Shown one piece after another: positions 1-48,790 of a stretch of 64,000 nucleotides of DNA; within the stretch, counting starts at the first letter, position 1, and each line of letters starts with the position of its first letter. The DNA is taken from NCBI RefSeq assembly GCF_040807025.1, contig NC_090947.1, positions 1,488,001-1,552,000 on the forward strand, written 5' to 3'. Under the pieces are notes generated by a model, which was not told the origin of the DNA, did no database searches, and worked only from the letters and a program-made list of their open reading frames with translations. The position numbers and the translations under genes are program-made. Source of the stretch: Struthio camelus. Taxonomy: Eukaryota > Chordata > Aves > Struthioniformes > Struthionidae.

Positions 1-155
1 CCCTTCCACACCTTGCATTTCTTCTCTGCTCTCTCGTCCTTGTGCCTGTGCTCCTGCTTCCTTCAGCCTGCTGGCCGTTGCCCTGGGCAGAGCATGCTGC
101 AGCTGCTGCCTCTGCAGCACCAGCCGCCTGCACCCATCGCACAGGGCCAACAACC
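1..155 (-). pseudogene. Fragment of small membrane-protein-like gene (left edge)
   Basis: Left part of the upstream gene fragment belonging to the unit that begins before the window, cut by the window edge. The minus-strand frame is the same as at 8998-9260. Confidence 0.3.
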
Positions 156-1685
156 ACCCCCCCCCACCTACCCACCCACCACCTCGCTCACGGGGGCCTT
201 GCGCAAGCTCCCGGCATCCCCGGGCCTCCAGCAAGCAACAAGGGATCCCTTCCGGGACCTCCACTTCGGACACGCAGGGCACAACCACCTGGAGGCTCAC
301 ACTGTTTGTTGTCCCAAAGAAGGCCTCTTTCACCCGCTCTGCAAGGAGCCCCCAAACACACACAGTCGCCACGTTTCTTTCCTTCATTTCTGCGCACACG
401 TGGGTGCTAGGTGGCAAGTCCACAGAGCTAGCACGCCTGATCACTACACAGCTGACACTTTAGACAGTCTAAGCAACAGTTCTCAGTCCCGTTTCCAACT
501 ACATTAAGGCATCCGTGTTGCCATTGGTTCTGTCAGGGCTCCTCTTCGTTCCAAGTCACAGTATCCTCTTTTTCTACTACGCATGCTCTAGGGGGAAGGG
601 GCTTTGACCAGCAGGGGGGCTTCCCTGCTTGTAGGTGGGTTTTTCCTTATGCTCATTCGGATAGTTCACCCGTCCTTCAAGTAGTTCTCTCCTGTTTATC
701 AGCTGGTTTTGTTCTCGTCAGCTTTATGTGGGTACTTGCTTAGCTGGTTGCCTTAGAGTGTTGTCTTGCTCCTTCCTTCAGGGCCTTGTTTTGTTAACTG
801 CCTGTGAAAGACTGACTAATACCCTAATGGCCTTGTTCCCCATCCCTCCAACAAGACCTCCCTCCCTTTTTGCCCGTTGCCTCGCAGCCTGTCCCTGGGC
901 ACCACTGGGCACAGTGTGCCTCCAGCCTCTGGACACCCTCCCGCCACAGAGTCATGCCCATTGAGAAGATGTTCCTGCAGCTGGCTTTGGCAGTGCCGGT
1001 GCCTGAAGAGCTCCCACTGTGGAGGGGCTGGAACCCCCAGTGCCTGGGCAGAGCTCTGGCCTCTGATGGCCTGGTGGCGGCATGGGCAAATCCCGTGGTG
1101 CCGGCCCGTGGCCACAGGCGCTCCCAGCCTTTGGTGCGCAAAGGGCAGCCCAGCGCTTCCTCATCTCCGGTGGTGGGAGGGCAGGCTGCAGGGCAGAGCA
1201 ATGGCTGCAGCCTTGCCTTCTGGCTCAGGAGACTTGCCGGCGAGGGGCCACCTCGGTGTCCTGAATCACGCGGAGGGGCTGATTGCCTCCCAAGGCAGAA
1301 TCTTGTCACCACCACTGTGCTCTCCCATCCAGGCCTGACCCTTTTGTCAGGGAAAACGGGCTGCTTCTCTGACGGCTGGAAGAGGGCGGGAGGGGATGTT
1401 GTGGCTGCCGCAGACTGCTGGAGAGAGTACATGCCCTACCCCCCTCCAAGGGGCCATTCCTGGGTTTTCCACCCATTCGTTGGCACCAAGAAAAGACACT
1501 GGCACGGGGTGAAGAGAGAGGGCTGCTTCTTGGGGGAAAAGGCAGCAGAGGGTGGGCTGGCAGCACAAGCCTGGCACGGGCTGGGCCTGAGGGCTGCAGC
1601 TGTCCTGCGGGCAGGGAGAGAGGCCAGCAACGCCCCCGACTTCCTCGCACACTCCGCTCGTCCCTGCGGGCAGAGCAGCCCGGCA

Positions 1686-4600
1686 TCAGGAGGCGGTCGA
1701 GCTCCCGCAGCAAACGCAGCCACCTCGCAGGGGCCAGGGCCACCTCTGCCACACTCTCCTCAGCCGCCAGCACAGGCCTTCGTGGCCGCCTCCAGGCGCA
1801 GACGTCTTCCCTGGAGCTCTCAGCAGCAGGATGGTTTGCGTGGCCAGGGAACAGATGGACGGGCTGACGTCCTCCTCCAAGCCTTGAAGCGCTGAGAGAA
1901 AGAGCCAGAGCAGAGATCAAGCCCCCATATCTGCACAGAGCCCAGGCAGCCCTTCCTGGCGATGACATGGCCTGTCCCACCCACCTCTTCCCACAGACAG
2001 GAGGCAGCAGAAGGGACACATGCATCAGCTGGGACTTGCTGGCCAGGAATGTCCCAAAGGCCCCTGATATCTTCTCGCGACTCTACGCGCACCACCTCTG
2101 AGCCGCACGGGGAGCAGCAGAGCCCTCCTGGCCTGCGCCAGGCATTGCAGCTCACTGCCCAGCCTCTGTCTTCCTCGCCGCCAGCCCTGCCTCACACCCT
2201 GCTGCCCTCACTCACCCTCGCAGATGTCCTCCACCTTCTTCTTGCTCTGGCCCCTCATGCTCTGCCCGACGAGCCCTAGGCACACGCACAGCCCCTCACC
2301 AATCCTGCTCCCCACACCACCGCCAGCACAAAACCCCTCCCCCAGGGCTAGCGCTAAGCTGCCCCAGTGCAGAGAGGGGCCGCAGGGCTTGGAGCTCACC
2401 AAGGAACCGCACAGCCATCTCTCGCAAGCACTCCTGCGGGCTCTCCAAGTACGGCAGGCTCTGGCGCAGGTATTCTTCCGATCTTCTCCTGCCCCTCGCC
2501 AGCTGGGCAGAGCACAAGGCCACAGGCTGGGCGCACACCCTCCCCACCCAGCCAGCCACTCCCTCCACCCACCACTCGCTTTAGCATCCCAGGGCTCAGC
2601 AAGGGCACAGCAACCTAGAGAAGAGCCCGTTGGGGCAGTGTGCTGGACAAGGGCAGCGGGAGTGCTGCTCCAGGCTGGCACCTCTGGGCACCAGCCGCGG
2701 CGAGGCACACGGCTGCCTGTCCCACACACTGGCCATGCACAGGCCTTGCCCAGGCTGCCTCTGGGGGCTTTGGGGCCATCCTTACCAGGCACTCGCCGAT
2801 CCTGCAGCTCTGCGCTGTCTCAGCCAGCTGCCTCAGCTGCTCCCACCTCAGCAACTTGGCAGCACCAAGCAGGGCTTCCTGAGAGGCCTGCACAGCAGCA
2901 CAGACCCGCTGATGCCACCGCAGCCCAGCGCACAACCCCCACCGCGGCCCTCCTCTTGGCAAGGCCTCCTCGGGGCCTTTCCTCGCCCACAATGGCAAGA
3001 GGGAGCAGCTGGCAACTGCCTCTGCCAGCATGTTCCGGGCCCCGGGCAGACAGCTGGGACAACCACCCCCGCAGGTGTATGGTGCTGCAGGTGGAGGCAT
3101 GGCACGAAGACGAAGGCACTGCTGGGCCTGGTGCAAACAGCAAGGGGGCGCTCTGCACCCTCAGCACCTGGCGCCTCCAGCTCACCCACCTTCAAAGGCT
3201 CCCACTGCCAGCAGCCCTTGCTCCTCATGCTCACGCCCACTCACAGGGCGTCCGCATCGCCCTCCTCCAACGAGCCATCCCGTTACACAGCCATACCTGG
3301 GCCACGCGGGGGATCTCGTCATGCCAGTGGAAGAGCAGCGGCAGCAGGCTCCTGTGCACTTGCTTCTTCAGGGCCTGTGTTTTGGTGCCCACTACAGCCT
3401 CCATCACCTCTTGGAAGAGGCGGATGGAGAGCTCTCGCACGCAGTCCAGCTCCTGGCGGGAAGGGAGAGGGGCCACCTCAGCACTGCCTGCTCCAAGCCC
3501 ACAGTCAGCACAGGGGTCAGTGGGGCTGGTGGCGAGATGAAGGTTTCGGACCCTCCCTGCGCACCAAGGGGCTGTGGGCCTCGTCTGCACCCACTGCAAA
3601 ATGGCCCCCGGCCCAGGCAGGGCAATGCAGCGCGCTTCTGTACCGTGCTGCGGCCAGGGAGAGTGGAGCTGGCGGAGAAGTCTGCGCCTGGAAGGGCTCC
3701 TCTCGCCCTGGCCACACTGGCCCTGTCACCCCTGGCAAAGGCCCAACAGAGCTGCTCCAGGATGGCCCCCCCCCACAGTGGCTGCTGGGGCTGTGGGGAC
3801 GTTGGCGTTACTGAGGGCCTGTGTGCAGGCATGGGCAGCAGCAGGACTTCAGGCTTCCCTCAGCTCAGCCTGCCTGGCCCTCCTGGCGAGCCTGTCTTCA
3901 TCGCCCAGGGGCTCGAGCTGTGCTGCCAGCTCTAGAGGCCGGCAGGAGGAGGCAGCCCCGGGGCACGGCTGCAGGGGCTTTGTGCACAGTACCGAGCAGC
4001 TGAGGGTAGACAAGGGGCTGCTTCAAGGCAGTCCTGCAGCCCAGCGCACCACGGGCAGCACAGCGCAATGACCCCAAGAGCCCCCGGGCAAAAACGTTCC
4101 TGGCAGCACCCAGGGCCCCTGCTGGCAAGCACAAATTCCCACGCCGCAGGCACACCCACACGGCAACACACCACAGCCCGCAGCCCGCACACAGCCTCAC
4201 CGACACGCCAACAGGGCCCCCGCCTCTGCCCCCAGCCTAACCTCATCAAAGAGAGGCAGCAGCTTGTCGGCCAGCAGCGGAGCAAGGTGGGCCACCACCT
4301 GCTTCTCCATGACGTGGACCACATTGCTGAGCACCAGCAGGGCCTTGGCGCTGATGTCTCTGTCCGCGTCCTGCAGGTGCCCCACCAGCAGGGGCCACAG
4401 GCACTGCATTCTTCTGGCCTGGGGGAAACACAACCTCGGTGCCTGAAGAAAGAACCCACTGCCCTGGCAAAAAGGCTCACCTGCTCACACACCAGCTTCC
4501 CCCCTGCCTTTCCACAAGCGGCCATGGCAATGACTGCAGCAACCTGCGGCCTGGCAGCCTTTACCGGCACAGCCACGGGCCTGGACGGGCTGGGGCAGAG

Positions 4601-7600
4601 CGAGGCAGGAGAGGGCACCGCCGGCTCCTCTTCTCCGTCACTCTTCAACGGGCAGCGGGCTTAGTAACCCACACTGCCTGCAAAGCTGCCCGGGCCACGA
4701 GCCGTGCCAGCCCTAGCAGGCGCCTTTCCCGGCAGGGCTCACGGCCCCATTGCCAAGGCCCTGCTGACACCCCCGGCTTGTGCACAGAGGCTGCGGCGCA
4801 GCGCAGCACCCCAAGGCGGCACTCGGCCCGCGGTGGCCCCTGCGTGGTGGGGGCTGCAGCCTCGCGGCCCAGAAGCTGCCTGCGGCATCAGCCTGGCCCT
4901 GCGCTCAGCCTCCAACAGGGCAGCAGCTCCCACAGCTCCTGAGGCCCAGCACAGTCCAAGCTACCCTGTTGCCCAGCACCCCACCGCCCAGCCCCTCGCT
5001 GCCTGTGCACCGGCACCCGGCTGGCCCCTGCTCACCATCTCCTGTCTCTTGCACAGCAGCACGAGGCCTCTGAGCGCCAGCCTGTGCATCACCCGCCAGT
5101 GACCCCGCAGATATCTCCAGAAGAGAATCGGCAAGTCGGCCTCCTCTGCGCAAAGGTCACTGCAGGCCAGCAGCTGAAGCACAGCACAGAGAAAGTGGTG
5201 AGGTCGGCAGGACTCCCGGCCTCAGCCAGCGCCCGATCCCACCAGCAGCTCCGGGCCAGGGCACCAGGCCCGGCCCAAAGGCAGCCGTCAGTGCCGACAG
5301 CCCCTGGTGCCCCACTCCCTGCCCTGGGCCTCAGGCCGCACCGCGCACAGCCCTCGCCTGCTCCTCCACTCCTCTCCAGCCCCGAGAGGCACCGCCTGCC
5401 ATCAGGCTCACCTCCACCAGGAAAGCCATGGCAGGCATCTCCCAGCAGGCCTCTCCACGTTTCAGCAGCGCTGTCAGCCGTTGGAAGAGGACGAGACGCA
5501 GCTCTCTTGGGCTCTTCCTCATCTCTCTGGCAGAGGCAAGAAGGCCCTGTCACTTCTGAGCAGCCAGGCCAAGCTCTTCTGTGATGGCACTCCCCATCCC
5601 TCTAGGCAGGGCTCGTGGAGCCCCGCAGCCATGGAGCGGCACCTCCCTGGGCTGCTCTACTCGGCCAGCCCTCCCTCACAAGGCCTCAAGCTGCAGCCCC
5701 GTGGGGCTCTGCGGGGCAGCCTGTGTGCAAGGGAGAAATGCTGGGGCAGAGCAGGGACAAGGGGCTTCTCACCTGGCCAGCAAAGCCACTCCCGCGTGGT
5801 AGGTCTGCGCGCTGAGGAGTGTGTCCCAGCCACCCTTCCTCGCCATGGCCAGCACCTGACTCTCGTAGCCGGCACGGCACAGCAGTGCTTTCATGGTCTG
5901 CACTGCCAACCTGCGTGCACAGCAAAGGCCACGTCACCCTGGCACCCCTGGCCCTGCCGCCACCTCCACAGCACACACAGCAGGCGTGGGATGGAGCACC
6001 TCACGGGGCTGCCGGGAGCAGACTCTTCCCCTTGCTGTTCTCCCCAGCACATCTCAGCCTCCTCCGGCGTCAGCTCTGCGCAGAAGGAAAGCTGGAAGAG
6101 CAGCGCCAGGAAGAGCTGCGGGAAGAACGCCTCCAGCACGTGCTGGCAGCTGGGCTGCTGCAGCATCTCATGGAGCACTCTGGTTGCCTGCAGAAGAAGC
6201 CCCGAGACAGCTGTCGCTGCTGAGATGTGCCTGTTGCGCTGCCCGAGCTTGGCGGTGAGGCTCACGCACTGCCCTGAGCCTCGGGACAAGCAGGAGTGCC
6301 TGCCGTGCCTGAGTGGCCAGAGCAAAGGCACCGAAGCTCTCTGGCCTCAGCTCCTCTTTGGGCCATGGCCACAACAAGCCCTGCCAGCCGTAGCCCTGCC
6401 GCGCCGTGGCTGTGCGCCCGGCGGGAGGTCACGGCTTCTTGCTGCGTGGGCAAGGCCAGGGCAGCTCTAGGGGAGAGCGAGGCTACGTCCACAAACTCAC
6501 GGCCACGGAAACGATGACTCTGTCGTCCCCATCCAACGTGCACGCCTCGTCCACGGGCCAATCCTGCAGGACACTGAGCAGCTCCTGCAGCACCCTCTCG
6601 GCAGCTCCGCACTTTGACAGCAGCATCCTCCACATGGCTGCGGCAGCGCTGCAGGCCCACAGCGCTCGCTCAGCGGGTGCCGCAGCGGCAGCTGTGGCCT
6701 GGGCAGCCGCAGAGGGCCTGGGCGGGCCGCCAGCCCTGCCTCTGCCCACTGCCCCTTGCCCGCAGCACCCTGCGCGCTCTGCCCCACCCCGCAGCCCATG
6801 GCCAAGCTCCAGTCCCTTGTGGGGCACGCAGGCGGCAAGGCGGCCAGGCTCTGGGGCGGAAGGCAGGCACGCTTGCTCGGCTCGCGCTGCTGCAGCCCGG
6901 CCTGACGCGCCGCGGCTGGCACACGGGGACAACAGCAGGGCCCAGCCCCTCACGAGAGGCCGGACAATCGCCACCTGCCCCGCAGCCCGCAGGGCACGAG
7001 CTCTGCAGGCTGCCGGCCCCCCAGCTCTCAAGGCAAGCGGGCCCCTACCTGTCGCACGAGGGGGAACAGCGCAACAGGCTCACGACCACCTCCTCTGGGC
7101 ATGCACAGGCCAGCAGCAGAAGAGCCCGCTCCAGGCTGCGCCGCGCAGACGCCTCTGTGACGGCCAGCACGCTGCTCCACATGCCCCTCACCACCGGGGG
7201 CACCTGGAGGGCACACGGCTCAGAGTGGGGCTGCTGCCAGAGGGCAGCCGTTGGCCCAGCTGCCCCCGACAACGGCTGCCCTTGCCCCCCTTGCTCTGTG
7301 CTGGCCTGAGAGGGGCTGGCGGGCCTGGCAGGCCTGGACTCAGGGCAAGAACAAGCCCCCGGAGGCCTCGAGCCCCGGCCACGCCACCCACAGGCTACTT
7401 ACATGCTCCACAAGGCAGGCAGCGTCCGCCACAAGCGCCTGCAGCACGCGAGCAGCTGTGTGCGCCTCCTCGGTGCTGCGGGAGCTCATGGCCTCGATGG
7501 CTAGGAGGATGCTGTGGGCCCTCTCAGCGGGCTGCCGGGACGTCCCCAACATCTAGGGGAGAAAGGAGGGCAGCCGAGCTAGAGAGGTCACCGCCAGCGG

Positions 7601-7744
7601 GGCCCCGCACGCCCGCCTGGGCGGCGCCTGGGGCGTGCAGACCTGGTGGGGCTCCAGCTGGCGGCTGCCCTCAGCAAGGGCCGCGTCCTCCTCCTCCTCC
7701 TCCGTCCAGGCCAGCCTGGGGCGGCGGGGGGGTCTCTGCGCCAT
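1686..7744 (-). CDS. Maestro HEAT-like repeat (MROH) family protein, copy 1
   Basis: Predicted 14-exon gene of 669 residues, rich in alpha-helical HEAT-type repeats; its cellular role is not established. Exons from 5' to 3' on the minus strand: 7643-7744, 7403-7552, 7049-7203, 6501-6648, 6000-6268, 5773-5910, 5412-5526, 5036-5173, 4242-4418, 3297-3452, 2786-2887, 2400-2502, 2216-2275, 1686-1882. All introns are GT-AG and all phases join. The ATG sits in CCCACCATGG and opens MAQRPPRRPRLAW followed by an acidic run. Family hallmarks are GWDTLLSAQTYHAG (about residues 303-316), a helix pair with KALLVLSNVV (exon 9), VRELSIRLFQEVMEAVVG (exon 10), EYLRQSLPYLESPQE (exon 12) and SICSLATQTILLLRA (exon 14). 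The first donor (CAG|GTCTGC) is weak and its intron only 90 bp. The family is certain, but the closest numbered member (MROH2B- or MROH7-like) is not. Confidence 0.86.
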
Positions 7745-8240
7745 GGTGGGCAAGGCGGCAGAGGCTGCCCGGGGGCGGCGGGGAAAGACCTGGCTGCGCT
7801 CAGGGGGCTCCTCGGCCAGCCCCGCGCGCTCTCGCCCTGTCCCGCGGCCGTCCGACCGGACACTGCGGGGCCGAGGCCGCGCCGACGCCTGGCAAGGCCC
7901 CGGGCTGTCCCAGGAGCGCAGTCACAAAGGGCCCCCACTGTCACCCTGGGGCGGGCGGGCCCCGGCCCGGGCAGGGGCAGGCCGGGTGCCCTCGCGGGGC
8001 GCCGGGCCGGCTCGCCCCCTGCCACACCTCTCTTTGCCCTCGGGCTGCCCCGGGCCCCCATGGCTCCTGGGGCCCTCACAGCCGCTCCCACCCTCCTCTC
8101 GTCCCCGCCACCGCTGCTCCCGGCCCCGTCCTCAGCCACCCCAACCAACGCCCCGCCGCGACACCCCTGGCACCGCTGGCAAGGACTCCTTCCCAACCAC
8201 CGCAACCACCCTGTCATCCTGCGAGGCGGCCAGAGCAAAA
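7560..8240 (-). promoter_or_regulatory. CpG-rich promoter region of MROH copy 1
   Basis: Dense CpG and GC stretch covering the first exon and the DNA upstream of the ATG at 7744, with many CGCG/GCGC steps and a GC-box-like GGGGCGGGCGGG near 7950. No TATA box is evident. The position and composition fit a CpG-island promoter for minus-strand transcription. The transcription start cannot be placed from sequence alone. Confidence 0.6.
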
Positions 8241-8499
8241 TCTCACTCCCCCACCACCCAACCCCAACCTCCGCCTCACGGCTGCCGCTTGCACTTGCCA
8301 AAGCCACAAGCCTGCGGGGCACAGGGCACTCCTGCCTTTGCGCTGCCTACAGTGCTGTTCGGTCCTCCTGAAGCAGCCTTGGCCCAAGCACTTTGCGCTC
8401 CCCTGCTGCTCCCTGCGGGCAGCAGGCCAAGCACGGAGGCCTGCGCTCACCAGCAGCTTCCACAACGGCCAAGGCGGTGCCCACCACCTTCCTCTGCTT

Positions 8500-9260
8500 C
8501 TCTGCTCTCGGGTGCCGGCCCTCCTGCGGGTGCCCGTGGCACAGGTGCCCCCGTACTCTCTCATCAAGGCAGGGTTGGCCTCCAGACAGCAGAGCACCTT
8601 GCAGCAGCTACCACAGCTGCACCCATCCCAGCAGCCTGGCGCCAGGGCAGCGGAGGGGGTTTGGCCCAGCTCCTGCAAGAGCCATGCCAGGGGCTCAGGC
8701 CTGCCTGGCTGCAGTTGGCCTCTTCTCCACCAACTCAAGCCTCGCTGCACTGCTCCAGCTTGCGCTAAGGACACCTGCAGCAGGACCTGTGGGTTCTCCT
8801 CCCAGCAGATTTCAGCGCAGCCCCTCAGCAGGTCTCCGCTTCCCCCTCCAAGGCCCACACCAAGGCCTGCCTCCTGGCGGCACAACAAGGCCTGGCAGGA
8901 GGCACGTGACCCTTCGGGTCCTGCCAAGGCTTCCTGCGCCATAGACGTTGGACTGGACCCTGGGATCGCGCTCCCCTCTCCCAGAGCAGCCTCCTCCCTA
9001 AGCACCCAGGCAGCAGCGCTCGCAGCAGCCCCTTTCATCTGCCGGCACCCCCGGAGCCACGCTGCACCTGGGCTTGCGTGGCCAGGCAGAGAAAAGCCCC
9101 TCGCTCTCTTCCACACCTTGCATTTCTTCTCTGCTCTCTCGTCCTTGTGCCTGTGCTCCTGCTTCCTTCAGCCTGCTGGCCGTTGCCCTGGGCAGAGCAT
9201 GCTGCAGCTGCTGCCTCTGCAGCACCAGCCGCCTGCACCCATCGCACAGGGCCAACAACC
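8500..9260 (-). pseudogene. Two decayed pieces related to the 50-kb membrane-protein gene (unit 1)
   Basis: Two minus-strand stretches resemble exon 2 of the plus-strand gene at 49992-51018. The piece at about 8504-8620 reads VLCCLEANPALM, matching LLCRLEANTTLM there. The nucleotide match continues into the GGCACCTGTG region, with one base fewer, so the frame is broken. It also matches that gene's intron upstream of exon 2. The piece at 8998-9254 ends GVEESEGLFSAWPRK, resembling DVEQDERLFSTAMYS, and also has a frame of its own (RLVLQRQQLQHAL...). The piece expected to come second lies upstream, so these may be two separate partial duplicates. No first exon with the hydrophobic leader was found. 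Function unknown. Confidence 0.4.
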
Positions 9261-10809
9261 ACCCCCCCCAACCTACCCACCCACCACCTCGCTCATGGGG
9301 GCCTTGCGCAAGCTCCCGGCATCCCCGGGCCTCCAGCAAGCAACAAGGGATCCCTTCCGGGACCTCCACTTCGGACACACAGGGCACAACCACCTGGAGG
9401 CTCACACTGTTTGTTGTCCCAAAGAAGGCCTCTTTCACCCGCTCTGCAAGGAGCCCCCAAACACACACAGTCGCCACGTTTCTTTCCTTCATTTCTGCGC
9501 ACACGTGGGTGCTAGGTGGCAAGTCCACAGAGCTAGCACGCCTGATCACTACACAGCTGACACTTTAGACAGTCTAAGCAACAGTTCTCAGTCCCGTTTC
9601 CAACTACATTAAGGCATCCGTGTTGCCATTGGTTCTGTCAGGGCTCCTCTTCGTTCCGAGTCACAGTATCCTCTTTTTCTACTACGCATGCTCTAGGGGG
9701 AAGGGGCTTTGACCAGCAGGGGGGCTTCCCTGCTTGTAGGTGGGTTTTTCCTTATGCTCATTCGGATAGTTCACCCGTCCTTCAAGTAGTTCTCTCCTGT
9801 TTATCAGCTGGTTTTGTTCTCGTCAGCTTTATGTGGGTACTTGCTTAGCTGGTTGCCTTAGAGTGTTGTCTTGCTCCTTCCTTCAGGGCCTTGTTTTGTT
9901 AACTGCCTGTGAAAGACTGACTAATACCCTAATGGCCTTGTTCCCCATCCCTCCAACAAGACCTCCCTCCCTTTTTGCCCGTTGCCTCACAGCCCGTCCC
10001 TGGGCACCACTGGGCACAGTGTGCCTCCAGCCTCTGGACACCCTCCCGCCACAGAGTCATGCCCATTGAGAAGATGTTCCTGCAGCTGGCTTTGGCAGTG
10101 CCGGTGCCTGAAGAGCTCCCACTGTGGAGGGGCTGGAACCCCCAGTGCCTGGGCAGAGCTCTGGCCTCTGATGGCCTGGTGGCGGCATGGGCAAATCCCG
10201 TGGTGCCGGCCCGTGGCCACAGGCGCTCCCAGCCTTTGGTGCGCAAAGGGCAGCCCAGCGCTTCCTCATCTCCGGTGGTGGGAGGGCAGGCTGCAGGGCA
10301 GAGCAATGGCTGCAGCCTTGCCTTCTGGCTCAGGAGACTTGCCGGCGAGGGGCCACCTCGGTGTCCCGAATCATGCGGAGGGGCTGATTGCCTCCCAAGG
10401 CAGAATCTTGTCACCACCACTGCGCTCTCCCATCCAGGCCTGACCCTTTTGTCAGGGAAAACGGGCTGCTTCTCTGACGGCTGGAAGAGGGCGGGGGGGG
10501 ATGTTGTGGCTGCCGCAGACTGCTGGAGAGAGTACATGCCCTACCCCCCTCCAAGGGTGGCCGCGAAGGAATCGCGGTCATTCCTGGGTTTTCCACCCAT
10601 TCGTTGGCACCAAGAAAAGACACTGGCACGGGGTGAAGAGAGAGGGCTGCTTCTTGGGGGAAAAGGCAGCAGAGGGTGGGCTGGCAGCACAAGCCTGGCA
10701 CGGGCTGGGCCTGAGGGCTGCAGCTGTCCTGCGGGCAGGGAGAGAGGCCAGCAACGCCCCCGACTTCCTCGCACACTCCGCTCGTCCCTGCGGGCAGAGC
10801 AGCCCGGCA

Positions 10810-16800: not shown

Positions 16801-16858
16801 CCTCCTCCTCCTCCTCCGTCCAGGCCAGCCTGGGGCGGCGGGGGGGTCTCTGCGCCAT
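10810..16858 (-). pseudogene. MROH-like gene, copy 2, frameshifted in exon 11
   Basis: Same 14-exon layout as copy 1 (first exon 16757-16858, last exon 10810-11006). Exon 11 (11910-12001) is 92 nt instead of 102 because 10 bp present in every other copy are missing. This shifts the frame through exon 12 and produces a TGA at 11379-11381 in exon 13, leaving about 587 residues and losing the final helices. The stop lies only about 39 nt before the last exon junction, so by the usual 50-nt rule the transcript might escape nonsense-mediated decay. It is therefore either a recent pseudogene or a shortened variant. Residue changes elsewhere are few, such as NRHV for NRHI in exon 5, a change shared by copies 3-5. 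Confidence 0.8.
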
Positions 16859-35000: not shown

Positions 35001-35109
35001 TGCAGACCTGGTGGGGCTCCAGCTGGCGGCTGCCCTCGGCAAGGGCCGCGTCCTCCTCCTCCTCCTCCGTCCAGGCCAGCCTGGGGCGGCGGGGGGGTCT
35101 CTGCGCCAT
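29049..35109 (-). CDS. MROH-like gene, copy 4
   Basis: Complete 14-exon gene. Exons 14-10 lie 27363 bp, exons 9-3 27364 bp, and exons 2-1 27365 bp from those of copy 1; both 1-bp shifts are intronic. First exon 35008-35109, last exon 29049-29245. It has a private Gln to His change in exon 10 (TKTHALKK). The predicted length is unchanged at 669 residues and no internal stop was seen. Confidence 0.86.
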
Positions 35110-35605
35110 GGTGGGCAAGGCGGCAGAGGCTGCCCGGGGGCGGCGGGGAAAGACCTGGCTGCGCTCAGGGGGCTCCTCGGCCAGCCCCGCGCGCTCTCGC
35201 CCTGTCCCGCGGCCGTCCGACCGGACACTGCGGGGCCGAGGCCGCGCCGACGCCTGGCAAGGCCCCGGGCTGTCCCAGGAGCGCAGTCACAAAGGGCCCC
35301 CACTGTCACCCTGGGGCGGGCGGGCCCCGGCCCGGGCAGGGGCAGGCCGGGTGCCCTCGCGGGGCGCCGGGCCGGCTCGCCCCCTGCCACACCTCTCTTT
35401 GCCCTCGGGCTGCCCCGGGCCCCCATGGCTCCTGGGGCCCTCACAGCCGCTCCCACCCTCCTCTCGTCCCCGCCACCGCTGCTCCCGGCCCCGTCCTCAG
35501 CCACCCCAACCAACGCCCCGCCGCGACACCCCTGGCACCGCTGGCAAGGACTCCTTCCCAACCACCGCAACCACCCTGTCATCCTGCGAGGCGGCCAGAG
35601 CAAAA
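34925..35605 (-). promoter_or_regulatory. CpG-rich promoter region of MROH copy 4
   Basis: Equivalent CpG-rich block upstream of the ATG at 35109, with GC-box-like motif and CpG density retained. Confidence 0.6.
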
Positions 35606-35864
35606 TCTCACTCCCCCACCACCCAACCCCAACCTCCGCCTCACGGCTGCCGCTTGCACTTGCCAAAGCCACAAGCCTGCGGGGCACAGGGCACTCCTGC
35701 CTTTGCGCTGCCTACAGTGCTGTTCGGTCCTCCTGAAGCAGCCTTGGCCCAAGCACTTTGCGCTCCCCTGCTGCTCCCCGCGGGCAGCAGGCCAAGCACG
35801 GAGGCCTGCGCTCACCAGCAGCTTCCACAACGGCCAAGGCGGTGCCCACCACCTTCCTCTGCTT

Positions 35865-36626
35865 CTCTGCTCTCTGCTGCCGGCCCTCCTGCGGGTGCCC
35901 GTGGCACAGGTGCCCCCGTACTCTCTCATCAAGGCAGGGTTGGCCTCCAGACAGCAGAGCACCTTGCAGCAGCTACCACAGCTGCACCCATCCCAGCAGC
36001 CTGGCGCCAGGGCAGTGGAGGGGGTTTGGCCCAGCTCCTGCAAGAGCCATGCCAGGGGCTCAGGCCTGCCTGGCTGCAGTTGGCCTCTTCTCCACCAACT
36101 CAAGCCTCGCTGCACTGCTCCAGCTTGTGCTAAGGACACCTGCAGCAGGACCTGTGGGTTCTCCTCCCAGCAGATTTCAGCGCAGCCCCTCAGCAGGTCT
36201 CCGCTTCCCCCTCCAAGGCCCACACCAAGGCCTGCCTCCTGGCGGCACAACAAGGCCTGGCAGGAGGCACGTGACCCTTCGGGTCCTGCCAAGGCTTCCT
36301 GCGCCATAGACGTTGGACTGGACCCTGGGATCGCGCTCCCCTCTCCCAGAGCAGCCTCCTCCCTAAGCACCCAGGCAGCAGCGCTCGCAGCAGCCCCTTT
36401 CATCTGCCGGCACCCCCGGAGCCACGCTGCACCTGGGCTTGCGTGGCCAGGCAGAGAAAAGCCCCTCGCTCTCTTCCACACCTTGCATTTCTTCTCTGCT
36501 CTCTCGTCCTTGTGCCTGTGCTCCTGCTTCCTTCAGCCTGCTGGCCGTTGCCCTGGGCAGAGCATGCTGCAGCTGCTGCCTCTGCAGCACCAGCCGCCTG
36601 CACCCATCGCACAGGGCCAACAACCA
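35865..36626 (-). pseudogene. Decayed membrane-protein-gene pieces (unit 4)
   Basis: Same two pieces in array copy 4. The frame of the second piece extends further upstream without a stop, as in copies 2 and 5. Confidence 0.4.
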
Positions 36627-38174
36627 CCCCCCCCAACCTACCCACCCACCACCTCGCTCATGGGGGCCTTGCGCAAGCTCCCGGCATCCCCGGGCCTCCA
36701 GCAAGCAACAAGGGATCCCTTCCGGGACCTCCACTTCGGACACACAGGGCACAACCACCTGGAGGCTCACACTGTTTGTTGTCCCAAAGAAGGCCTCTTT
36801 CACCCGCTCTGCAAGGAGCCCCCAAACACACACAGTCGCCACGTTTCTTTCCTTCATTTCTGCGCACACGTGGGTGCTAGGTGGCAAGTCCACAGAGCTA
36901 GCACGCCTGATCACTACACAGCTGACACTTTAGACAGTCTAAGCAACAGTTCTCAGTCCCGTTTCCAACTACATTAAGGCATCCGTGTTGCCATTGGTTC
37001 TGTCAGGGCTCCTCTTCGTTCCGAGTCACAGTATCCTCTTTTTCTACTACGCATGCTCTAGGGGGAAGGGGCTTTGACCAGCAGGGGGGCTTCCCTGCTT
37101 GTAGGTGGGTTTTTCCTTATGCTCATTCGGATAGTTCACCCGTCCTTCAAGTAGTTCTCTCCTGTTTATCAGCTGGTTTTGTTCTCGTCAGCTTTATGTG
37201 GGTACTTGCTTAGCTGGTTGCCTTAGAGTGTTGTCTTGCTCCTTCCTTCAGGGCCTTGTTTTGTTAACTGCCTGTGAAAGACTGACTAATACCCTAATGG
37301 CCTTGTTCCCCATCCCTCCAACAAGACCTCCCTCCCTTTTTGCCCGTTGCCTCACAGCCCGTCCCTGGGCACCACTGGGCACAGTGTGCCTCCAGCCTCT
37401 GGACACCCTCCCGCCACAGAGTCATGCCCATTGAGAAGATGTTCCTGCAGCTGGCTTTGGCAGTGCCGGTGCCTGAAGAGCTCCCACTGTGGAGGGGCTG
37501 GAACCCCCAGTGCCTGGGCAGAGCTCTGGCCTCTGATGGCCTGGTGGCGGCATGGGCAAATCCCGTGGTGCCGGCCCGTGGCCACAGGCGCTCCCAGCCT
37601 TTGGTGCGCAAAGGGCAGCCCAGCGCTTCCTCATCTCCGGTGGTGGGAGGGCAGGCTGCAGGGCAGAGCAATGGCTGCAGCCTTGCCTTCTGGCTCAGGA
37701 GACTTGCCGGCGAGGGGCCACCTCGGTGTCCCGAATCATGCGGAGGGGCTGATTGCCTCCCAAGGCAGAATCTTGTCACCACCACTGCGCTCTCCCATCC
37801 AGGCCTGACCCTTTTGTCAGGGAAAACGGGCTGCTTCTCTGACGGCTGGAAGAGGGCGGGGGGGGATGTTGTGGCTGCCGCAGACTGCTGGAGAGAGTAC
37901 ATGCCCTACCCCCCTCCAAGGGTGGCCGCGAAGGAATCGCGGTCATTCCTGGGTTTTCCACCCATTCGTTGGCACCAAGAAAAGACACTGGCACGGGGTG
38001 AAGAGAGAGGGCTGCTTCTTGGGGGAAAAGGCAGCAGAGGGTGGGCTGGCAGCACAAGCCTGGCACGGGCTGGGCCTGAGGGCTGCAGCTGTCCTGCGGG
38101 CAGGGAGAGAGGCCAGCAACGCCCCCGACTTCCTCGCACACTCCGCTCGTCCCTGCGGGCAGAGCAGCCCGGCA

Positions 38175-41100
38175 TCAGGAGGCGGTCGAGCTCCCGCAGC
38201 AAACGCAGCCACCTCGCAGGGGCCAGGGCCACCTCTGCCACACTCTCCTCAGCCGCCAGCACAGGCCTTCGTGGCCGCCTCCAGGCGCAGACGTCTTCCC
38301 TGGAGCTCTCAGCAGCAGGATGGTTTGCGTGGCCAGGGAACAGATGGACGGGCTGACGTCCTCCTCCAAGCCTTGAAGCGCTGAGAGAAAGAGCCAGAGC
38401 AGAGATCAAGCCCCCATATCTGCACAGAGCCCAGGCAGCCCTTCCTGGCGATGACATGGCCTGTCCCACCCACCTCTTCCCACAGACAGGAGGCAGCAGA
38501 AGGGACACATGCATCAGCTGGGACTTGCTGGCCAGGAATGTCCCAAAGGCCCCTGAAAGCTTCTCGCGACTCTACGCGCACCACCTCTGAGCCGCACGGG
38601 GAGCAGCAGAGCCCTCCTGGCCTGCGCCAGGCATTGCAGCTCGCTGCCCAGCCTCTGTCTTCCTCGCCGCCAGCCCTGCCTCACACCCTGCTGCCCTCAC
38701 TCACCCTCGCAGATGTCCTCCACCTTCTTCTTGCTCTGGCCCCTCATGCTCTGCCCGACGAGCCCTAGGCACACGCACAGCCCCTCACCAATCCTGCTCC
38801 CCACACCACCGCCAGCACAAAACCCCTCCCCCAGGGCTAGCGCTAAGCTGCCCCAGTGCAGAGAGGGGCCGCAGGGCTTGGAGCTCACCAAGGAACCGCA
38901 CAGCCATCTCTCGCAAGCACTCCTGCGGGCTCTCCAAGTACGGCAGGCTCTGGCGCAGGTATTCTTCCGATCTTCTCCTGCCCCTCGCCAGCTGGGCAGA
39001 GCACAAGGCCACAGGCTGGGCGCACACCCTCCCCACCCAGCCAGCCACTCCCTCCACCCACCACTCGCTTTAGCATCCCAGGGCTCAGCAAGGGCACAGC
39101 AACCTAGAGAAGAGCCCGTTGGGGCAGTGTGCTGGACAAGGGCAGCGGGAGTGCTGCTCCAGGCTGGCACCTCTGGGCACCAGCCGCGGCGAGGCACGCG
39201 GCTGCCTGTCCCACACACTGGCCATGCACAGGCCTTGCCCAGGCTGCCTCTGGGGGCTTTGGGGCCATCCTTACCAGGCACTCGCCGATCCTGCAGCTCT
39301 GCGCTGTCTCAGCCAGCTGCCTCAGCTGCTCCCACCTCAGCAACTTGGCAGCACCAAGCAGGGCTTCCTGAGAGGCCTGCACAGCAGCACAGACCCGCTG
39401 ATGCCACCGCAGCCCAGCGCACAACCCCCACCGCGGCCCTCCTCTTGGCAAGGCCTCCTCGGGGCCTTTCCTCGCCCACAATGGCAAGAGGGAGCAGCTG
39501 GCAACTGCCTCTGCCAGCATGTTCCGGGCCCCGGGCAGACAGGTGGGGCAACCACCCCCGCAGGTGTATGGTGCTGCAGGTGGAGGCATGGCACGAAGAC
39601 GAAGGCACTGCTGGGCCTGGTGCAAACAGCAAGGGGGCGCTCTGCACCCTCAGCACCTGGCGCCTCCAGCTCACCCACCTTCAAAGGCTCCCACTGCCAG
39701 CAGCCCTTGCTCCTCATGCTCACGCCCACTCACAGGGCGTCCGCATCGCCCTCCTCCAACGAGCCGTCCCGTTACACAGCCATACCTGGGCCACGCGGGG
39801 GATCTCGTCATGCCAGTGGAAGAGCAGCGGCAGCAGGCTCCTGTGCACTTGCTTCTTCAGGGCCTGTGTTTTGGTGCCCACTACAGCCTCCATCACCTCT
39901 TGGAAGAGGCGGATGGAGAGCTCTCGCACGCAGTCCAGCTCCTGGCGGGAAGGGAGAGGGGCCACCTCAGCACTGCCTGCTCCAAGCCCACAGTCAGCAC
40001 AGGGGTCAGTGGGGCTGGTGGCGAGATGAAGGTTTCGGACCCTCCCTGCGCACCAAGGGGCTGTGGGCCTCGTCTGCACCCACTGCAAAATGGCCCCCGG
40101 CCCAGGCAGGGCAATGCAGCGCGCTTCTGTACCGTGCTGCGGCCAGGGAGAGCGGAGCTGGCGGAGAAGTCTGCGCCTGGAAGGGCTCCTCTCGCCCTGG
40201 CCACACTGCCCCCGTCACCCCTGGCCAAGGCCCAACAGAGCTGCTCCAGGATGCCCCCCCCCACAGTGGCTGCTGGGGCTGTGGGGACGTTGGCGTTACT
40301 GAGGGCCTGTGTGCAGGCATGGGCAGCAGCGGGACTTCAGGCTTCCCTCAGCTCGGCCTGCCTGGCCCTCCTGGTGAGCCTGTCTTCATCGCCCAGGGGC
40401 TCGAGCTGTGCTGCCAGCTCTAGAGGCCGGCAGGAGGAGGCAGCCCCGGGGCATGGCTGCAGGGGCTTTGTGCACAGTACCGAGCAGCTGAGGGTAGACA
40501 AGGGGCTGCTTCAAGGCAGTCCTGCAGCCCAGCGCACCACGGGCAGCACAGCGCAATGACCCCAAGAGCCCCCGGGCAAAAACGTTCCTGGCAGCACCCA
40601 GGGCCCCTGCTGGCAAGCACAAATTCCCACGCCGCAGGCACACCCACACGGCAACACACCACAGCCCGCAGCCCGCACACAGCCTCACCGACACGCCAAC
40701 AGGGCCCCCGCCTCTGCCCCCAGCCTAACCTCATCAAAGAGAGGCAGCAGCTTGTCGGCCAGCAGCGGAGCAAGGTGGGCCACCACCTGCTTCTCCATGA
40801 CGTGGACCACATTGCTGAGCACCAGCAGGGCCTTGGCGCTGATGTCTCTGTCCGCGTCCTGCAGGTGCCCCACCAGCAGGGGCCACAGGCACTGCATTCT
40901 TCTGGCCTGGGGGAAACACAACCTCGGTGCCTGAAGAAAGAACCCACTGCCCTGGCAAAAAGGCTCACCTGCTCACACACCAGCTTCCCCCCTGCCTTTC
41001 CACAAGCGGCCATGGCAATGACTGCAGCAACCTGCGGCCTGGCAGCCTTTACCAGCACAGCCACGGGCCTGGACGGGCTGGGGCAGAGCGAGGCAGGAGA

Positions 41101-44100
41101 GGGCACCGCCGGCTCCTCTTCTCCGTCACTCTTCAACGGGCAGCGGGCTTAGTAACCCACACTGCCTGCAAAGCTGCCTGGGCCACGAGCCGTGCCAGCC
41201 CTAGCAGGCACCTTTCCCGGCAGGGCTCACGGCCCCATTGCCAAGGCCCTGCCGACACCCCCGGCTTGTGCACAGAGGCTGCGGCGCAGCGCAGCACCCC
41301 AAGGCGGCACTCGGCCCGCGGTGGCCCCTGCGTGGTGGGGGCTGCAGCCTCGCGGCCCAGAAGCTGCCTGCGGCATCAGCCTGGCCCTGCGCTCAGCCTC
41401 CAACAGGGCAGCAGCTCCCACAGCTCCTGAGGCCCAGCACAGTCCAAGCTACCCTGTTGCCCAGCACCCCACCGCCCAGCCCCTCGCTGCCTGTGCACCG
41501 GCACCCGGCTGGCCCCTGCTCACCATCTCCTGTCTCTTGCACAGCAGCACGAGGCCTCTGAGCGCCAGCCTGTGCATCACCCGCCAGTGACCCCGCAGAT
41601 ATCTCCAGAAGAGAATCGGCAAGTCGGCCTCCTCTGCGCAAAGGTCACTGCAGGCCAGCAGCTGAAGCACAGCACAGAGAAAGTGGTGAGGTCGGCAGGA
41701 CTCCCGGCCTCAGCCAGCGCCCGATCCCACCAGCAGCTCCGGGCCAGGGCACCAGGCCCGGCCCAAAGGCAGCCGTCAGTGCCGACAGCCCCTGGTGCCC
41801 CACTCCCTGCCCTGGGCCTCAGGCCGCACCGCGCACAGCCCTCGCCTGCTCCTCCACTCCTCTCCAGCCCCGAGAGGCACCGCCTGCCATCAGGCTCACC
41901 TCCACCAGGAAAGCCATGGCAGGCATCTCCCAGCAGGCCTCTCCACGTTTCAGCAGCGCTGTCAGCCGTTGGAAGAGGACGAGACGCAGCTCTCTTGGGC
42001 TCTTCCTCATCTCTCTGGCAGAGGCAAGAAGGCCCTGTCACTTCTGAGCAGCCAGGCCAAGCTCTTCTGTGATGGCACTCCCCATCCCTCTAGGCAGGGC
42101 TCGTGGAGCCCCGCAGCCATGGAGCAGCACCTCCCTGGGCTGCTCTACTCGGCCAGCCCTCCCTCACAAGGCCTCAAGCTGCAGCCCCGTGGGGCTCTGC
42201 GGGGCAGCCTGCGTGCAAGGGAGAAATGCTGGGGCAGAGCAGGGACAAGGGGCTTCTCACCTGGCCAGCAAAGCCACTCCCGCGTGGTAGGTCTGCGCGC
42301 TGAGGAGTGTGTCCCAGCCACCCTTCCTCGCCATGGCCAGCACCTGACTCTCGTAGCCGGCACGGCACAGCAGTGCTTTCATGGTCTGCACTGCCAACCT
42401 GCGTGCACAGCAAAGGCCACGTCACCCTGGCACCCCTGGCCCTGCCGCCACCTCCACAGCACACACAGCAGGCGTGGGATGGAGCACCTCACGGGGCTGC
42501 CGGGAGCAGACTCTTCCCCTTGCTGTTCTCCCCAGCACATCTCAGCCTCCTCCGGCGTCAGCTCTGCGCAGAAGGAAAGCTGGAAGAGCAGCGCCAGGAA
42601 GAGCTGCGGGAAGAACGCCTCCAGCACGTGCTGGCAGCTGGGCTGCTGCAGCATCTCATGGAGCACTCTGGTTGCCTGCAGAAGAAGCCCCGAGACAGCT
42701 GTCGCTGCTGAGACGTGCCTGTTGCGCTGCCCGAGCTTGGCGGTGAGGCTCACACACTGCCCTGAGCCTCGGGACAAGCAGGAGTGCCTGCCGTGCCTGA
42801 GTGGCCAGAGCAAAGGCACCGAAGCTCTTTGGCCTCAGCTCCTCTTTGGGCCATGGCCACAACAAGCCCTGCCAGCCGTAGCCCTGCCGCGCCGTGGCTG
42901 TGCGCCCGGCGGGAGGTCACGGCTTCTTGCTGCGTGGGCAAGGCCAGGGCAGCTCTAGGGGAGAGCGAGGCTACGTCCACAAACTCACGGCCACGGAAAC
43001 GATGACTCTGTCGTCCCCATCCAACGTGCACGCCTCGTCCACGGGCCAATCCTGCAGGACACTGAGCAGCTCCTGCAGCACCCTCTCGGCAGCTCCGCAC
43101 TTCGACAGCAGCATCCTCCACATGGCTGCGGCAGCGCTGCAGGCCCACAGCGCTCGCTCAGCGGGTGCCGCAGCGGCAGCTGTGGCCTGGGCAGCCGCAG
43201 AGGGCCTGGGCGGGCCGCCAGCCCTGCCTCTGCCCACTGCCCCTTGCCCGCAGCACCCTGCGCGCTCTGCCCCACCCCGCAGCCCATGGCCAAGCTCCAG
43301 TCCCTTGTGGGGCACGCAGGCGGCAAGGCGGCCAGGCTCTGGGGCGGAAGGCAGGCACGCTTGCTCGGCTCGCGCTGCTGCAGCCCGGCCTGACGCGCCG
43401 CGGCTGGCACACGGGGACAACAGCAGGGCCCAGCCCCTCACGAGAGGCCGGACAATCGCCACCTGCCCCGCAGCCCGCAGGGCACGAGCTCTGCAGGCTG
43501 CCGGCCCCCCAGCTCTCAAGGCAAGCGGGCCCCTACCTGTCGCACGAGGGGGAACAGCGCAACAGGCTCACGACCACCTCCTCTGGGCATGCACAGGCCA
43601 GCAGCAGAAGAGCCCGCTCCAGGCTGCGCCGCGCAGACGCCTCTGTGACGGCCAGCACGCTGCTCCACATGCCCCTCACCACCGGGGGCACCTGGAGGGC
43701 ACACGGCTCAGAGTGGGGCTGCTGCCAGAGGGCAGCCGTTGGCCCAGCTGCCCCCGACAACGGCTGCCCTTGCCCCCCTTGCTCTGTGCTGGCCTGAGAG
43801 GGGCTGGCGGGCCTGGCAGGCCTGGAGTCAGGGCAAGAACAAGCCCCCGGAGGCCTCGAGCCCCGGCCACGCCACCCACAGGCTACTTACATGCTCCACA
43901 AGGCAGGCAGCGTCCGCCACAAGCGCCTCCAGCACGCGAGCAGCTGTGTGCGCCTCCTCGGTGCTGCGGGAGCTCATGGCCTCGATGGCTAGGAGGATGC
44001 TGTGGGCCCTCTCAGCGGGCTGCCGGGACGTCCCCAACATCTAGGGGAGAAAGGAGGGCAGCCGAGCTAGAGAGGTCACCGCCAGCGGGGCCCCGCACGC

Positions 44101-44232
44101 CCGCCTGGGCGGCGCCTGGGGCGTGCAGACCTGGTGGGGCTCCAGCTGGCGGCTGCCCTCAGCAAGGGCCGCGTCCTCCTCCTCCTCCTCCGTCCAGGCC
44201 AGCCTGGGGCGGCGGGGGGGTCTCTGCGCCAT
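38175..44232 (-). CDS. MROH-like gene, copy 5
   Basis: Complete 14-exon gene and the last intact member before the array edge. Exons 14-10 lie 36489 bp and exons 9-1 36488 bp from those of copy 1, the one-base change falling in the intron between exons 9 and 10. First exon 44131-44232, last exon 38175-38371. Predicted 669 residues with exon 2 of the Glu type (RVLEALV). No disruption was found. Confidence 0.86.
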
Positions 44233-44728
44233 GGTGGGCAAGGCGGCAGAGGCTGCCCGGGGGCGGCGGGGAAAGACCTGGCTGCGCTCAGGGGGCTCCT
44301 CGGCCAGCCCCGCGCGCTCTCGCCCTGTCCCGCGGCCGTCCGACCGGACACTGCGGGGCCGAGGCCGCGCCGACGCCTGGCAAGGCCCCGGGCTGTCCCA
44401 GGAGCGCAGTCACAAAGGGCCCCCACTGTCACCCTGGGGCGGGCGGGCCCCGGCCCGGGCAGGGGCAGGCCGGGTGCCCTCGCGGGGCGCCGGGCCGGCT
44501 CGCCCCCTGCCACACCTCTCTTTGCCCTCGGGCTGCCCCGGGCCCCCATGGCTCCTGGGGCCCTCACAGCCGCTCCCACCCTCCTCTCGTCCCCGCCACC
44601 GCTGCTCCCGGCCCCGTCCTCAGCCACCCCAACCAACGCCCCGCCGCGACACCCCTGGCACCGCTGGCAAGGACTCCTTCCCAACCACCGCAACCACCCT
44701 GTCATCCTGCGAGGCGGCCAGAGCAAAA
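44048..44728 (-). promoter_or_regulatory. CpG-rich promoter region of MROH copy 5
   Basis: Equivalent CpG-rich block upstream of the ATG at 44232, retained without visible change. It is the last promoter copy before the array edge. Confidence 0.6.
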
Positions 44729-44987
44729 TCTCACTCCCCCACCACCCAACCCCAACCTCCGCCTCACGGCTGCCGCTTGCACTTGCCAAAGCCACAAGCC
44801 TGCGGGGCACAGGGCACTCCTGCCTTTGCGCTGCCTACAGTGCTGTTCGGTCCTCCTGAAGCAGCCTTGGCCCAAGCACTTTGCGCTCCCCTGCTGCTCC
44901 CCGCGGGCAGCAGGCCAAGCACGGAGGCCTGCGCTCACCAGCAGCTTCCACAACGGCCAAGGCGGTGCCCACCACCTTCCTCTGCTT

Positions 44988-45749
44988 CTCTGCTCTCTGC
45001 TGCCGGCCCTCCTGCGGGTGCCCGTGGCACAGGTGCCCCCGTACTCTCTCATCAAGGCAGGGTTGGCCTCCAGACAGCAGAGCACCTTGCAGCAGCTACC
45101 ACAGCTGCACCCATCCCAGCAGCCTGGCGCCAGGGCAGTGGAGGGGGTTTGGCCCAGCTCCTGCAAGAGCCATGCCAGGGGCTCAGGCCTGCCTGGCTGC
45201 AGTTGGCCTCTTCTCCACCAACTCAAGCCTCGCTGCACTGCTCCAGCTTGTGCTAAGGACACCTGCAGCAGGACCTGTGGGTTCTCCTCCCAGCAGATTT
45301 CAGCGCAGCCCCTCAGCAGGTCTCCGCTTCCCCCTCCAAGGCCCACACCAAGGCCTGCCTCCTGGCGGCACAACAAGGCCTGGCAGGAGGCACGTGACCC
45401 TTCGGGTCCTGCCAAGGCTTCCTGCGCCATAGACGTTGGACTGGACCCTGGGATCGCGCTCCCCTCTCCCAGAGCAGCCTCCTCCCTAAGCACCCAGGCA
45501 GCAGCGCTCGCAGCAGCCCCTTTCATCTGCCGGCACCCCCGGAGCCACGCTGCACCTGGGCTTGCGTGGCCAGGCAGAGAAAAGCCCCTCGCTCTCTTCC
45601 ACACCTTGCATTTCTTCTCTGCTCTCTCGTCCTTGTGCCTGTGCTCCTGCTTCCTTCAGCCTGCTGGCCGTTGCCCTGGGCAGAGCATGCTGCAGCTGCT
45701 GCCTCTGCAGCACCAGCCGCCTGCACCCATCGCACAGGGCCAACAACCA
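44988..45749 (-). pseudogene. Decayed membrane-protein-gene pieces (unit 5)
   Basis: Same two pieces in array copy 5, unchanged in layout. This is the copy nearest the apparently intact plus-strand relative at 50 kb, which has the opposite orientation. Confidence 0.4.
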
Positions 45750-48700
45750 CCCCCCCCAACCTACCCACCCACCACCTCGCTCATGGGGGCCTTGCGCAAG
45801 CTCCCGGCATCCCCGGGCCTCCAGCAAGCAACAAGGGATCCCTTCCGGGACCTCCACTTCGGACACACAGGGCACAACCACCTGGAGGCTCACACTGTTT
45901 GTTGTCCCAAAGAAGGCCTCTTTCACCCGCTCTGCAAGGAGCCCCCAAACACACACAGTCGCCACGTTTCTTTCCTTCATTTCTGCGCACACGTGGGTGC
46001 TAGGTGGCAAGTCCACAGAGCTAGCACGCCTGATCACTACACAGCTGACACTTTAGACAGTCTAAGCAACAGTTCTCAGTCCCGTTTCCAACTACATTAA
46101 GGCATCCATGTTGCCATTGGTTCTGTCAGGGCTCCTCTTCGTTCCGAGTCACAGTATCCTCTTTTTCTACTACGCATGCTCTAGGGGGAAGGGGCTTTGA
46201 CCAGCAGGGGGGCTTCCCTGCTTGTAGGTGGGTTTTTCCTTATGCTCATTCGGATAGTTCACCCGTCCTTCAAGTAGTTCTCTCCTGTTTATCAGCTGGT
46301 TTTGTTCTCGTCAGCTTTATGTGGGTACTTGCTTAGCTGGTTGCCTTAGAGTGTTGTCTTGCTCCTTCCTTCAGGGCCTTGTTTTGTTAACTGCCTGTGA
46401 AAGACTGACTAATACCCTAATGGCCTTGTTCCCCATCCCTCCAACAAGACCTCCCTCCCTTTTTGCCCGTTGCCTCACAGCCCGTCCCTGGGCACCACTG
46501 GGCACAGTGTGCCTCCAGCCTCTGGACACCCTCCCGCCACAGAGTCATGCCCATTGAGAAGATGTTCCTGCAGCTGGCTTTGGCAGTGCCGGTGCCTGAA
46601 GAGCTCCCACTGTGGAGGGGCTGGAACCCCCAGTGCCTGGGCAGAGCTCTGGCCTCTGATGGCCTGGTGGCGGCATGGGCAAATCCCGTGGTGCCGGCCC
46701 GTGGCCACAGGCGCTCCCAGCCTTTGGTGCGCAAAGGGCAGCCCAGCGCTTCCTCATCTCCGGTGGTGGGAGGGCAGGCTGCAGGGCAGAGCAATGGCTG
46801 CAGCCTTGCCTTCTGGCTCAGGAGACTTGCCGGCGAGGGGCCACCTCGGTGTCCCGAATCATGCGGAGGGGCTGATTGCCTCCCAAGGCAGAATCTTGTC
46901 ACCACCACTGCGCTCTCCCATCCAGGCCTGACCCTTTTGTCAGGGAAAACGGGCTGCTTCTCTGACGGCTGGAAGAGGGCGGGGGGGGATGTTGTGGCTG
47001 CTGCAGACTGCTGGAGAGAGTACATGCCCTACCCCCCTCCAAGGGTGGCCGCGAAGGAATCGCGGTCATTCCTGGGTTTTCCACCCATTCGTTGGCACCA
47101 AGAAAAGACACTGGCACGGGGTGAAGAGAGAGGGCTGCTTCTTGGGGGAAAAGGCAGCAGAGGGTGGGCTGGCAGCACAAGCCTGGCACGGGCTGGGCCT
47201 GAGGGCTGCAGCTGTCCTGCGGGCAGGGAGAGAGGCCAGCAACGCCCCCGACTTCCTCGCACACTCCGCTCGTCCCTGCGGGCAGAGCAGCCCGGCATCA
47301 GGAGGCGGTCGAGCTCCCGCAGCAAACGCAGCCACCTTGCAGGGGCCAGGGCCACCTCTGCCACACTCTCCTCAGCCGCCAGCACAGGCCTTCGTGGCCG
47401 CCTCCAGGCGCAGACGTCTTCCCTGGAGCTCTCAGCAGCAGGATGGTTTGCGTGGCCAGGGAACAGATGGACGGGCTGACGTCCTCCTCCAAGCCTTGAA
47501 GCGCTGAGAGAAAGAGCCAGAGCAGAGATCAAGCCCCCATATCTGCACAGAGCCCAGGCAGCCCTTCCTGGCGATGACATGGCCTGTCCCACCCACCTCT
47601 TCCCACAGACAGGAGGCAGCAGAAGGGACACATGCATCAGCTGGGACTTGCTGGCCAGGAATGTCCCAAAGGCCCCTGAAAGCTTCTCGCGACTCTACGC
47701 GCACCACCTCTGAGCCGCACGGGGAGCAGCAGAGCCCTCCTGGCCTGCGCCAGGCATTGCAGCTCGCTGCCCAGCCTCTGTCTTCCTCGCCGCCAGCCCT
47801 GCCTCACACCCTGCTGCCCTCACTCACCCTCGCAGATGTCCTCCACCTTCTTCTTGCTCTGGCCCCTCATGCTCTGCCCGACGAGCCCTAGGCACACGCA
47901 CAGCCCCTCACCAATCCTGCTCCCCACACCACCGCCAGCACAAAACCCCTCCCCCAGGGCTAGCGCTAAGCTGCCCCAGTGCAGAGAGGGGCCGCAGGGC
48001 TTGGAGCTCACCAAGGAACCGCACAGCCATCTCTCGCAAGCACTCCTGCGGGCTCTCCAAGTACGGCAGGCTCTGGCGCAGGTATTCTTCCGATCTTCTC
48101 CTGCCCCTCGCCAGCTGGGCAGAGCACAAGGCCACAGGCTGGGCGCACACCCTCCCCACCCAGCCAGCCACTCCCTCCACCCACCACTCGCTTTAGCATC
48201 CCAGGGCTCAGCAAGGGCACAGCAACCTAGAGAAGAGCCCGTTGGGGCAGTGTGCTGGACAAGGGCAGCGGGAGTGCTGCTCCAGGCTGGCACCTCTGGG
48301 CACCAGCCGCGGCGAGGCACGCGGCTGCCTGTCCCACACACTGGCCATGCACAGGCCTTGCCCAGGCTGCCTCTGGGGGCTTTGGGGCCATCCTTACCAG
48401 GCACTCGCCGATCCTGCAGCTCTGCGCTGTCTCAGCCAGCTGCCTCAGCTGCTCCCACCTCAGCAACTTGGCAGCACCAAGCAGGGCTTCCTGAGAGGCC
48501 TGCACAGCAGCACAGACCCGCTGATGCCACCGCAGCCCAGCGCACAACCCCCACCGCGGCCCTCCTCTTGGCAAGGCCTCCTCGGGGCCTTTCCTCGCCC
48601 ACAATGGCAAGAGGGAGCAGCTGGCAACTGCCTCTGCCAGCATGTTCCGGGCCCCGGGCAGACAGCTGGGACAACCACCCCCGCAGGTGCATGGTGCTGC

Positions 48701-48790
48701 AGGTGGAGGCATGGCACGAAGACGAAGGCACTGCTGGGCCTGGTGCAAACAGCAAGGGGGCGCTCTGCACCCTCAGCACCTGGCGCCTTC
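45594..48790. repeat. Tandem array unit, copy 6 (truncated)
   Basis: Partial unit of about 3.2 kb. It matches the others up to the position equivalent to about 3178 of copy 1, then stops. It contains the 3' flank and exons 14 to 11 of the MROH-like gene but none of the upstream exons, the promoter or the upstream gene fragments. It has the 19-bp block typical of copies 2-5, yet near 48660 it shares bases found only in copy 1. Confidence 0.95.
47298..48499 (-). pseudogene. MROH-like gene, copy 6, 5'-truncated remnant
   Basis: Only exons 14 (47298-47494), 13 (47828-47887), 12 (48012-48114) and 11 (48398-48499) remain. They are full length and in phase, encoding the last ~150 residues. Exon 10 and everything upstream, including the promoter, is replaced by the array-edge junction just after 48790. 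Exon 14 has an Arg to Gln change relative to the other copies (WPLQGGC). Without a promoter or start codon it cannot make the normal protein. Confidence 0.85.

Follow-up and report, generated by a model that had tools for sequence, protein, structure and literature searches.

MROH genes form a family of 11 members, the structure and function of which are given as unknown in the available part of PMC5391009, and the accessible portion of PMC6585022 lists five MROH genes in a human paralogon. In birds, excerpts of published work place MROH2B among penguin spermatogenesis genes (PMC11371425) and MROH1 among the genes with copies on the germline-restricted chromosome of the blue tit (PMC10172847). 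The chicken gene symbol MROH2BL23 is printed in an excerpt of PMC12192435. The initial annotation of the locus described here had treated the amplification of MROH genes in birds as known; the chicken symbol lends this general statement indirect support by suggesting many loci. Among the open-access papers listed, no title, abstract opening or excerpt describes tandem MROH arrays in birds. The window examined here, a 64,000-nucleotide stretch of contig NC_090947.1 of Struthio camelus, contains an array of mostly intact MROH-like genes that is most likely the product of a real, very recent amplification of a familiar kind.

The 9.1-kb unit and its gene

From position 1 to about 48,790 the window is occupied by head-to-tail units that repeat every 9.1 kb: a left part, five full units and a truncated right part. 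The array leaves the window across the left edge, and its right-hand limit lies at about 48,790. Self-BLAST of the window yields a single 39.7-kb match of 99.68% identity at an offset of one unit, spanning 3-48,808. Nine of ten 40-base anchors recur at spacings of 9,105-9,127 bases (one spacing of 18,238 reflects a missed unit), and the anchor at position 1 is found once only. These results and the alignment of the units agree on the tandem array of five full 9.1-kb units reported in the initial annotation, and its view that gene and flanks were copied as one block is supported. The locus appears to carry at least five near-identical head-to-tail copies of one complete MROH-like gene. The segments, to which no strand is assigned, are as follows:

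1..999: left fragment, intergenic DNA of another unit that is truncated by the edge of the window
1000..10104: unit 1, 9,105 bases, the most divergent full unit
10105..19218: unit 2, 9,114 bases
19219..28343: unit 3, 9,125 bases
28344..37469: unit 4, 9,126 bases
37470..46592: unit 5, 9,123 bases
46593..48790: truncated right-hand unit, gene exons 11-14 only (exon content deduced by shifting exon coordinates)
48796..48898: 103-bp unit segment, 99% identical to unit position 11350-11452, an out-of-order join at the right end of the array

The 103-bp segment carries part of exon 13, and the few bases before it (from about 48790) match neither side.

Each full unit bears a gene on its minus strand, with 14 exons and 13 GT-AG introns whose borders are kept in all five units. 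The coding sequence runs from ATG to TGA over 1,938 bases including the stop and encodes 645 amino acids. The five genes are:

1686..7744, minus strand: MROH-like gene of unit 1, 14 exons, 645 amino acids, intact
10810..16858, minus strand: MROH-like gene of unit 2, in which exon 11 has lost 10 bp (near 11915), so that the frame shifts and a stop arises at codon 561
19924..25982, minus strand: MROH-like gene of unit 3, intact
29049..35109, minus strand: MROH-like gene of unit 4, intact
38175..44232, minus strand: MROH-like gene of unit 5, intact

The earlier count of four intact genes out of five is correct, with open frames in units 1, 3, 4 and 5 and a frameshift in unit 2. A downstream acceptor in unit 2 keeps the frame open on paper; because the bases preceding it are purine-rich, the gene is best read as broken. 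A 637-residue model built on this alternative acceptor was rejected, as the alignment identifies unit 2 as the odd one, with its 10-bp deletion.

The protein of unit 5 matches the Pfam family HEAT_Maestro (PF21047) at 73.6 bits, where the cut-off is 27.4 (E 2.8e-20), residues 41-156 aligning with profile positions 114-229 of 229. The same protein shows a weak match to HEAT_MROH2B_C (PF23227), a C-terminal HEAT family that would point towards MROH2B, at 19.2 bits under a cut-off of 27 (E 7.6e-4), and five further HEAT, TPR and L27 matches that are weaker still, all under their cut-offs. Because HEAT_Maestro scores well above its gathering cut-off, the predicted product is classed as MROH-like, and the assignment stops at this level, with no subfamily named. 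Among solved structures, none was significantly similar to the 637-residue form used as the query (best E 0.79). The DNA before the start codon in unit 5 has a GC content of 0.79 and a CpG observed/expected ratio of 0.64-0.73, a composition compatible with a putative promoter.

The intergenic region and the right flank

The initial annotation had also placed a pseudogene upstream of the gene in each unit, and this claim was not borne out. The 317-residue minus-strand open reading frame of the intergenic region gives no hit in Pfam at E 0.1, and comparison of the array protein with the 3 kb of intergenic DNA gave nothing credible (best E 0.06). An upstream pseudogene of the array gene was rejected as a candidate, since the DNA relatives of the region align in several frames, none of them preferred, and their order is changed. 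RNA families gave no match at the gathering score, megablast of one unit against plasmids and phages gave no match, and a protein search of viral contigs returned nine pattern matches and no relatives.

To the right of the array, CR1-like reverse-transcriptase pieces lie at 49204-49485 and 51652-52052 and suggest a bird or other sauropsid; the Pfam RVT_1 match on the CR1-like piece is under its cut-off (E 0.069). Between the two CR1-like fragments sit two pieces at 50,810-51,081 that are about 72% identical to intergenic pieces of the unit (17598-18244), inverted and reordered. A third short DNA relative of the unit's intergenic region lies at 62,361-62,440 (74%). A 51-bp GC-rich tandem repeat, present in about 10 copies, closes the flank at 63472-64000, where the window ends on the right.

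The flank also contains a further relative of the array gene:

56196..57391, minus strand: partial MROH copy, diverged and separate from the array, in the array's orientation, with the end of exon 2 and exons 3 and 4

In this copy the exon-2 donor has changed from GT to AT, and exons 3 and 4 are open. With a GC content of 0.663 and a CpG ratio of 0.456, it resembles the array. Over 56671-57391, compared with unit 2, exon 4 is more diverged than the adjoining introns (23/148 vs 6/108, p = 0.016); of its 49 codons, 15 show non-synonymous changes and 3 synonymous ones, mostly in the second half of the exon. Such a pattern could reflect exchange with another paralogue or positive selection.

Divergence between units and the history of the array

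The five full units were aligned over 9,127 columns, and the left and right fragments were compared separately. The alignment contains 85 variable columns, 52 of which are gap-free substitutions. Units 2-5 differ pairwise by 8-13 substitutions (0.09-0.14%), and unit 1 differs from each other full unit by 32-41. Indels are limited to 19 bp missing from unit 1 past the gene's 3' end, the 10-bp exon-11 deletion of unit 2 and four single-base columns. Against the state common to the five full units, the 999 bases of the left fragment show 7 private differences. The right fragment, up to the break, has 3 private substitutions, and near its end it shares two alleles with unit 1 (columns 2074 and 2079).

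Exons, introns and flanks were compared on the same alignment, as were the coding changes, in line with the check proposed in the initial annotation. Substitution columns number 7 of 1,938 in exons, 30 of 4,123 in introns and 15 of 3,066 in intergenic DNA. Among units 2-5, exons are as variable as the rest (6/1,938 vs 16/7,189 variable sites, p = 0.44), which matches the prediction of a fresh amplification and is the pattern expected of a tandem array under concerted evolution; to this extent, the earlier claims that exons and non-coding DNA are equally similar and that protein selection plays no part hold. They fail for unit 1, the private substitutions of which are scarcer in exons (1/1,938 vs 29/7,189, p = 0.012), and this depletion hints at conservation of the protein. 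Four of the seven coding differences are synonymous and three non-synonymous; the codon list omits unit 2, whose length differs, and its seven sites still cover all exonic substitution columns. The expected share of non-synonymous and stop changes under the observed spectrum is about 0.65, and the observed share does not depart from neutrality (P = 0.20). Taken together, the older comparison, that of unit 1, hints at purifying selection, and the younger one among units 2-5 does not.

Divergence is also uneven along the array. The 30 private substitutions of unit 1 fall between columns 263 and 7534, with none in the last 1,593 columns (P = 0.003, for a region picked after viewing the data), and the largest circular gap among these sites has a shuffle P of 0.04. 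The divergence level drops near position 8,513, and on this basis a younger homogenised block seems to be nested in an older array. On the simplest reading, the younger stretch would run from about 8,513 to about 48,666, its right boundary being set by two sites only. In the four-gamete test, 4 of 10 informative site pairs conflict; since every conflict involves the CpG column 7785, recurrent mutation explains them equally well and conversion is left unproved.

The explanation held with considerable confidence is that a whole MROH-family gene was recently amplified head to tail together with its flanks, most probably by unequal crossing-over and conversion and in what seem to be at least two rounds; we infer both the mechanism and the number of rounds. 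Unequal crossing-over between misaligned copies would have spread the 9.1-kb block, and gene conversion would keep neighbouring copies alike. The suggested rounds are at least two: an older array would survive as the left fragment together with most of unit 1, and a later round would have produced the younger, near-identical stretch between about 8,513 and about 48,666. The predicted product is a 645-residue HEAT-repeat-like protein, the frame of which is open in four of the five copies. The initial annotation had offered recent duplication or ongoing homogenisation as the source of the similarity. Overall, that annotation was correct about the array and the number of genes, and partly so about what they mean.

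That the assembler wrote one or two real units repeatedly is very improbable. The 8-13 substitutions per 9.1 kb that separate units 2-5 do lie within the allelic range, as an artefact of this kind would have it; each of the five full units, however, has at least one substitution and at least one indel of its own, and unit 1 and the left fragment are more diverged than the interior of the array. Transitions make up 42 of the 52 substitutions and CpG-type transitions 34, an excess that germline mutation, but not random error in sequencing, would be expected to give. The longest exact repeat inside the array is 4,237 bp, so that accurate long reads can resolve and order the units. The CpG transitions and the length of this repeat both favour real copies over an assembly artefact. 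An older array kept alike by continuous GC-biased gene conversion, instead of by recent copying, is a doubtful though more plausible reading. The array has a GC content of 0.663 and a CpG ratio of 0.468, values that fall to 0.535 and 0.214 for the right flank, and at its private sites unit 1 has A/T where the others have G/C in 18 cases vs 7 (p = 0.043). CpG decay in unit 1 alone, however, would be expected to produce the same bias, and the five-unit alignment contains no secure conversion tract. GC-biased conversion could also act as a second step of the amplification by unequal crossing-over described above.

Retention of many copies because a high dosage of the protein is favoured seems unlikely, less so than outright assembly error. 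The intactness of four of the five copies and the avoidance of exons by the private substitutions of unit 1 would fit such selection; yet non-coding DNA is as alike as exons among units 2-5 (the comparison with p = 0.44), the copy in unit 2 is broken already, and the shortage of non-synonymous changes among the coding differences is not significant at the P of 0.20 given above. A bolder form is highly improbable: the window would show part of a large ampliconic array of a reproductive MROH gene, variable in copy number and still expanding, in which a sharp front at about 8,513 would divide older from freshly homogenised DNA and dosage selection would keep the genes intact.

Significance and relation to known systems

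Recent amplification, the preferred reading, makes the locus a finely resolved picture of a gene array at a very early age, with an apparent internal age boundary, useful for measuring homogenisation by unequal crossing-over and conversion. The array also shows how soon copies start to break, as one in five is broken already. The function of MROH proteins is little known, and were a gene of the family maintained in many open copies, its dosage and expression would be worth testing. With the wider MROH family, the array protein has the HEAT_Maestro domain in common; the array differs in consisting of near-identical tandem copies, and the excerpts of PMC5391009 make no mention of such arrays. 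The chicken MROH2B-like loci are similar in that the number in the symbol suggests many loci in a bird (PMC12192435, excerpt). Sdic of Drosophila melanogaster, an unrelated gene and an example of a young tandem family, is described in the available part of PMC7475035 as tandemly repeated and specific to its species.
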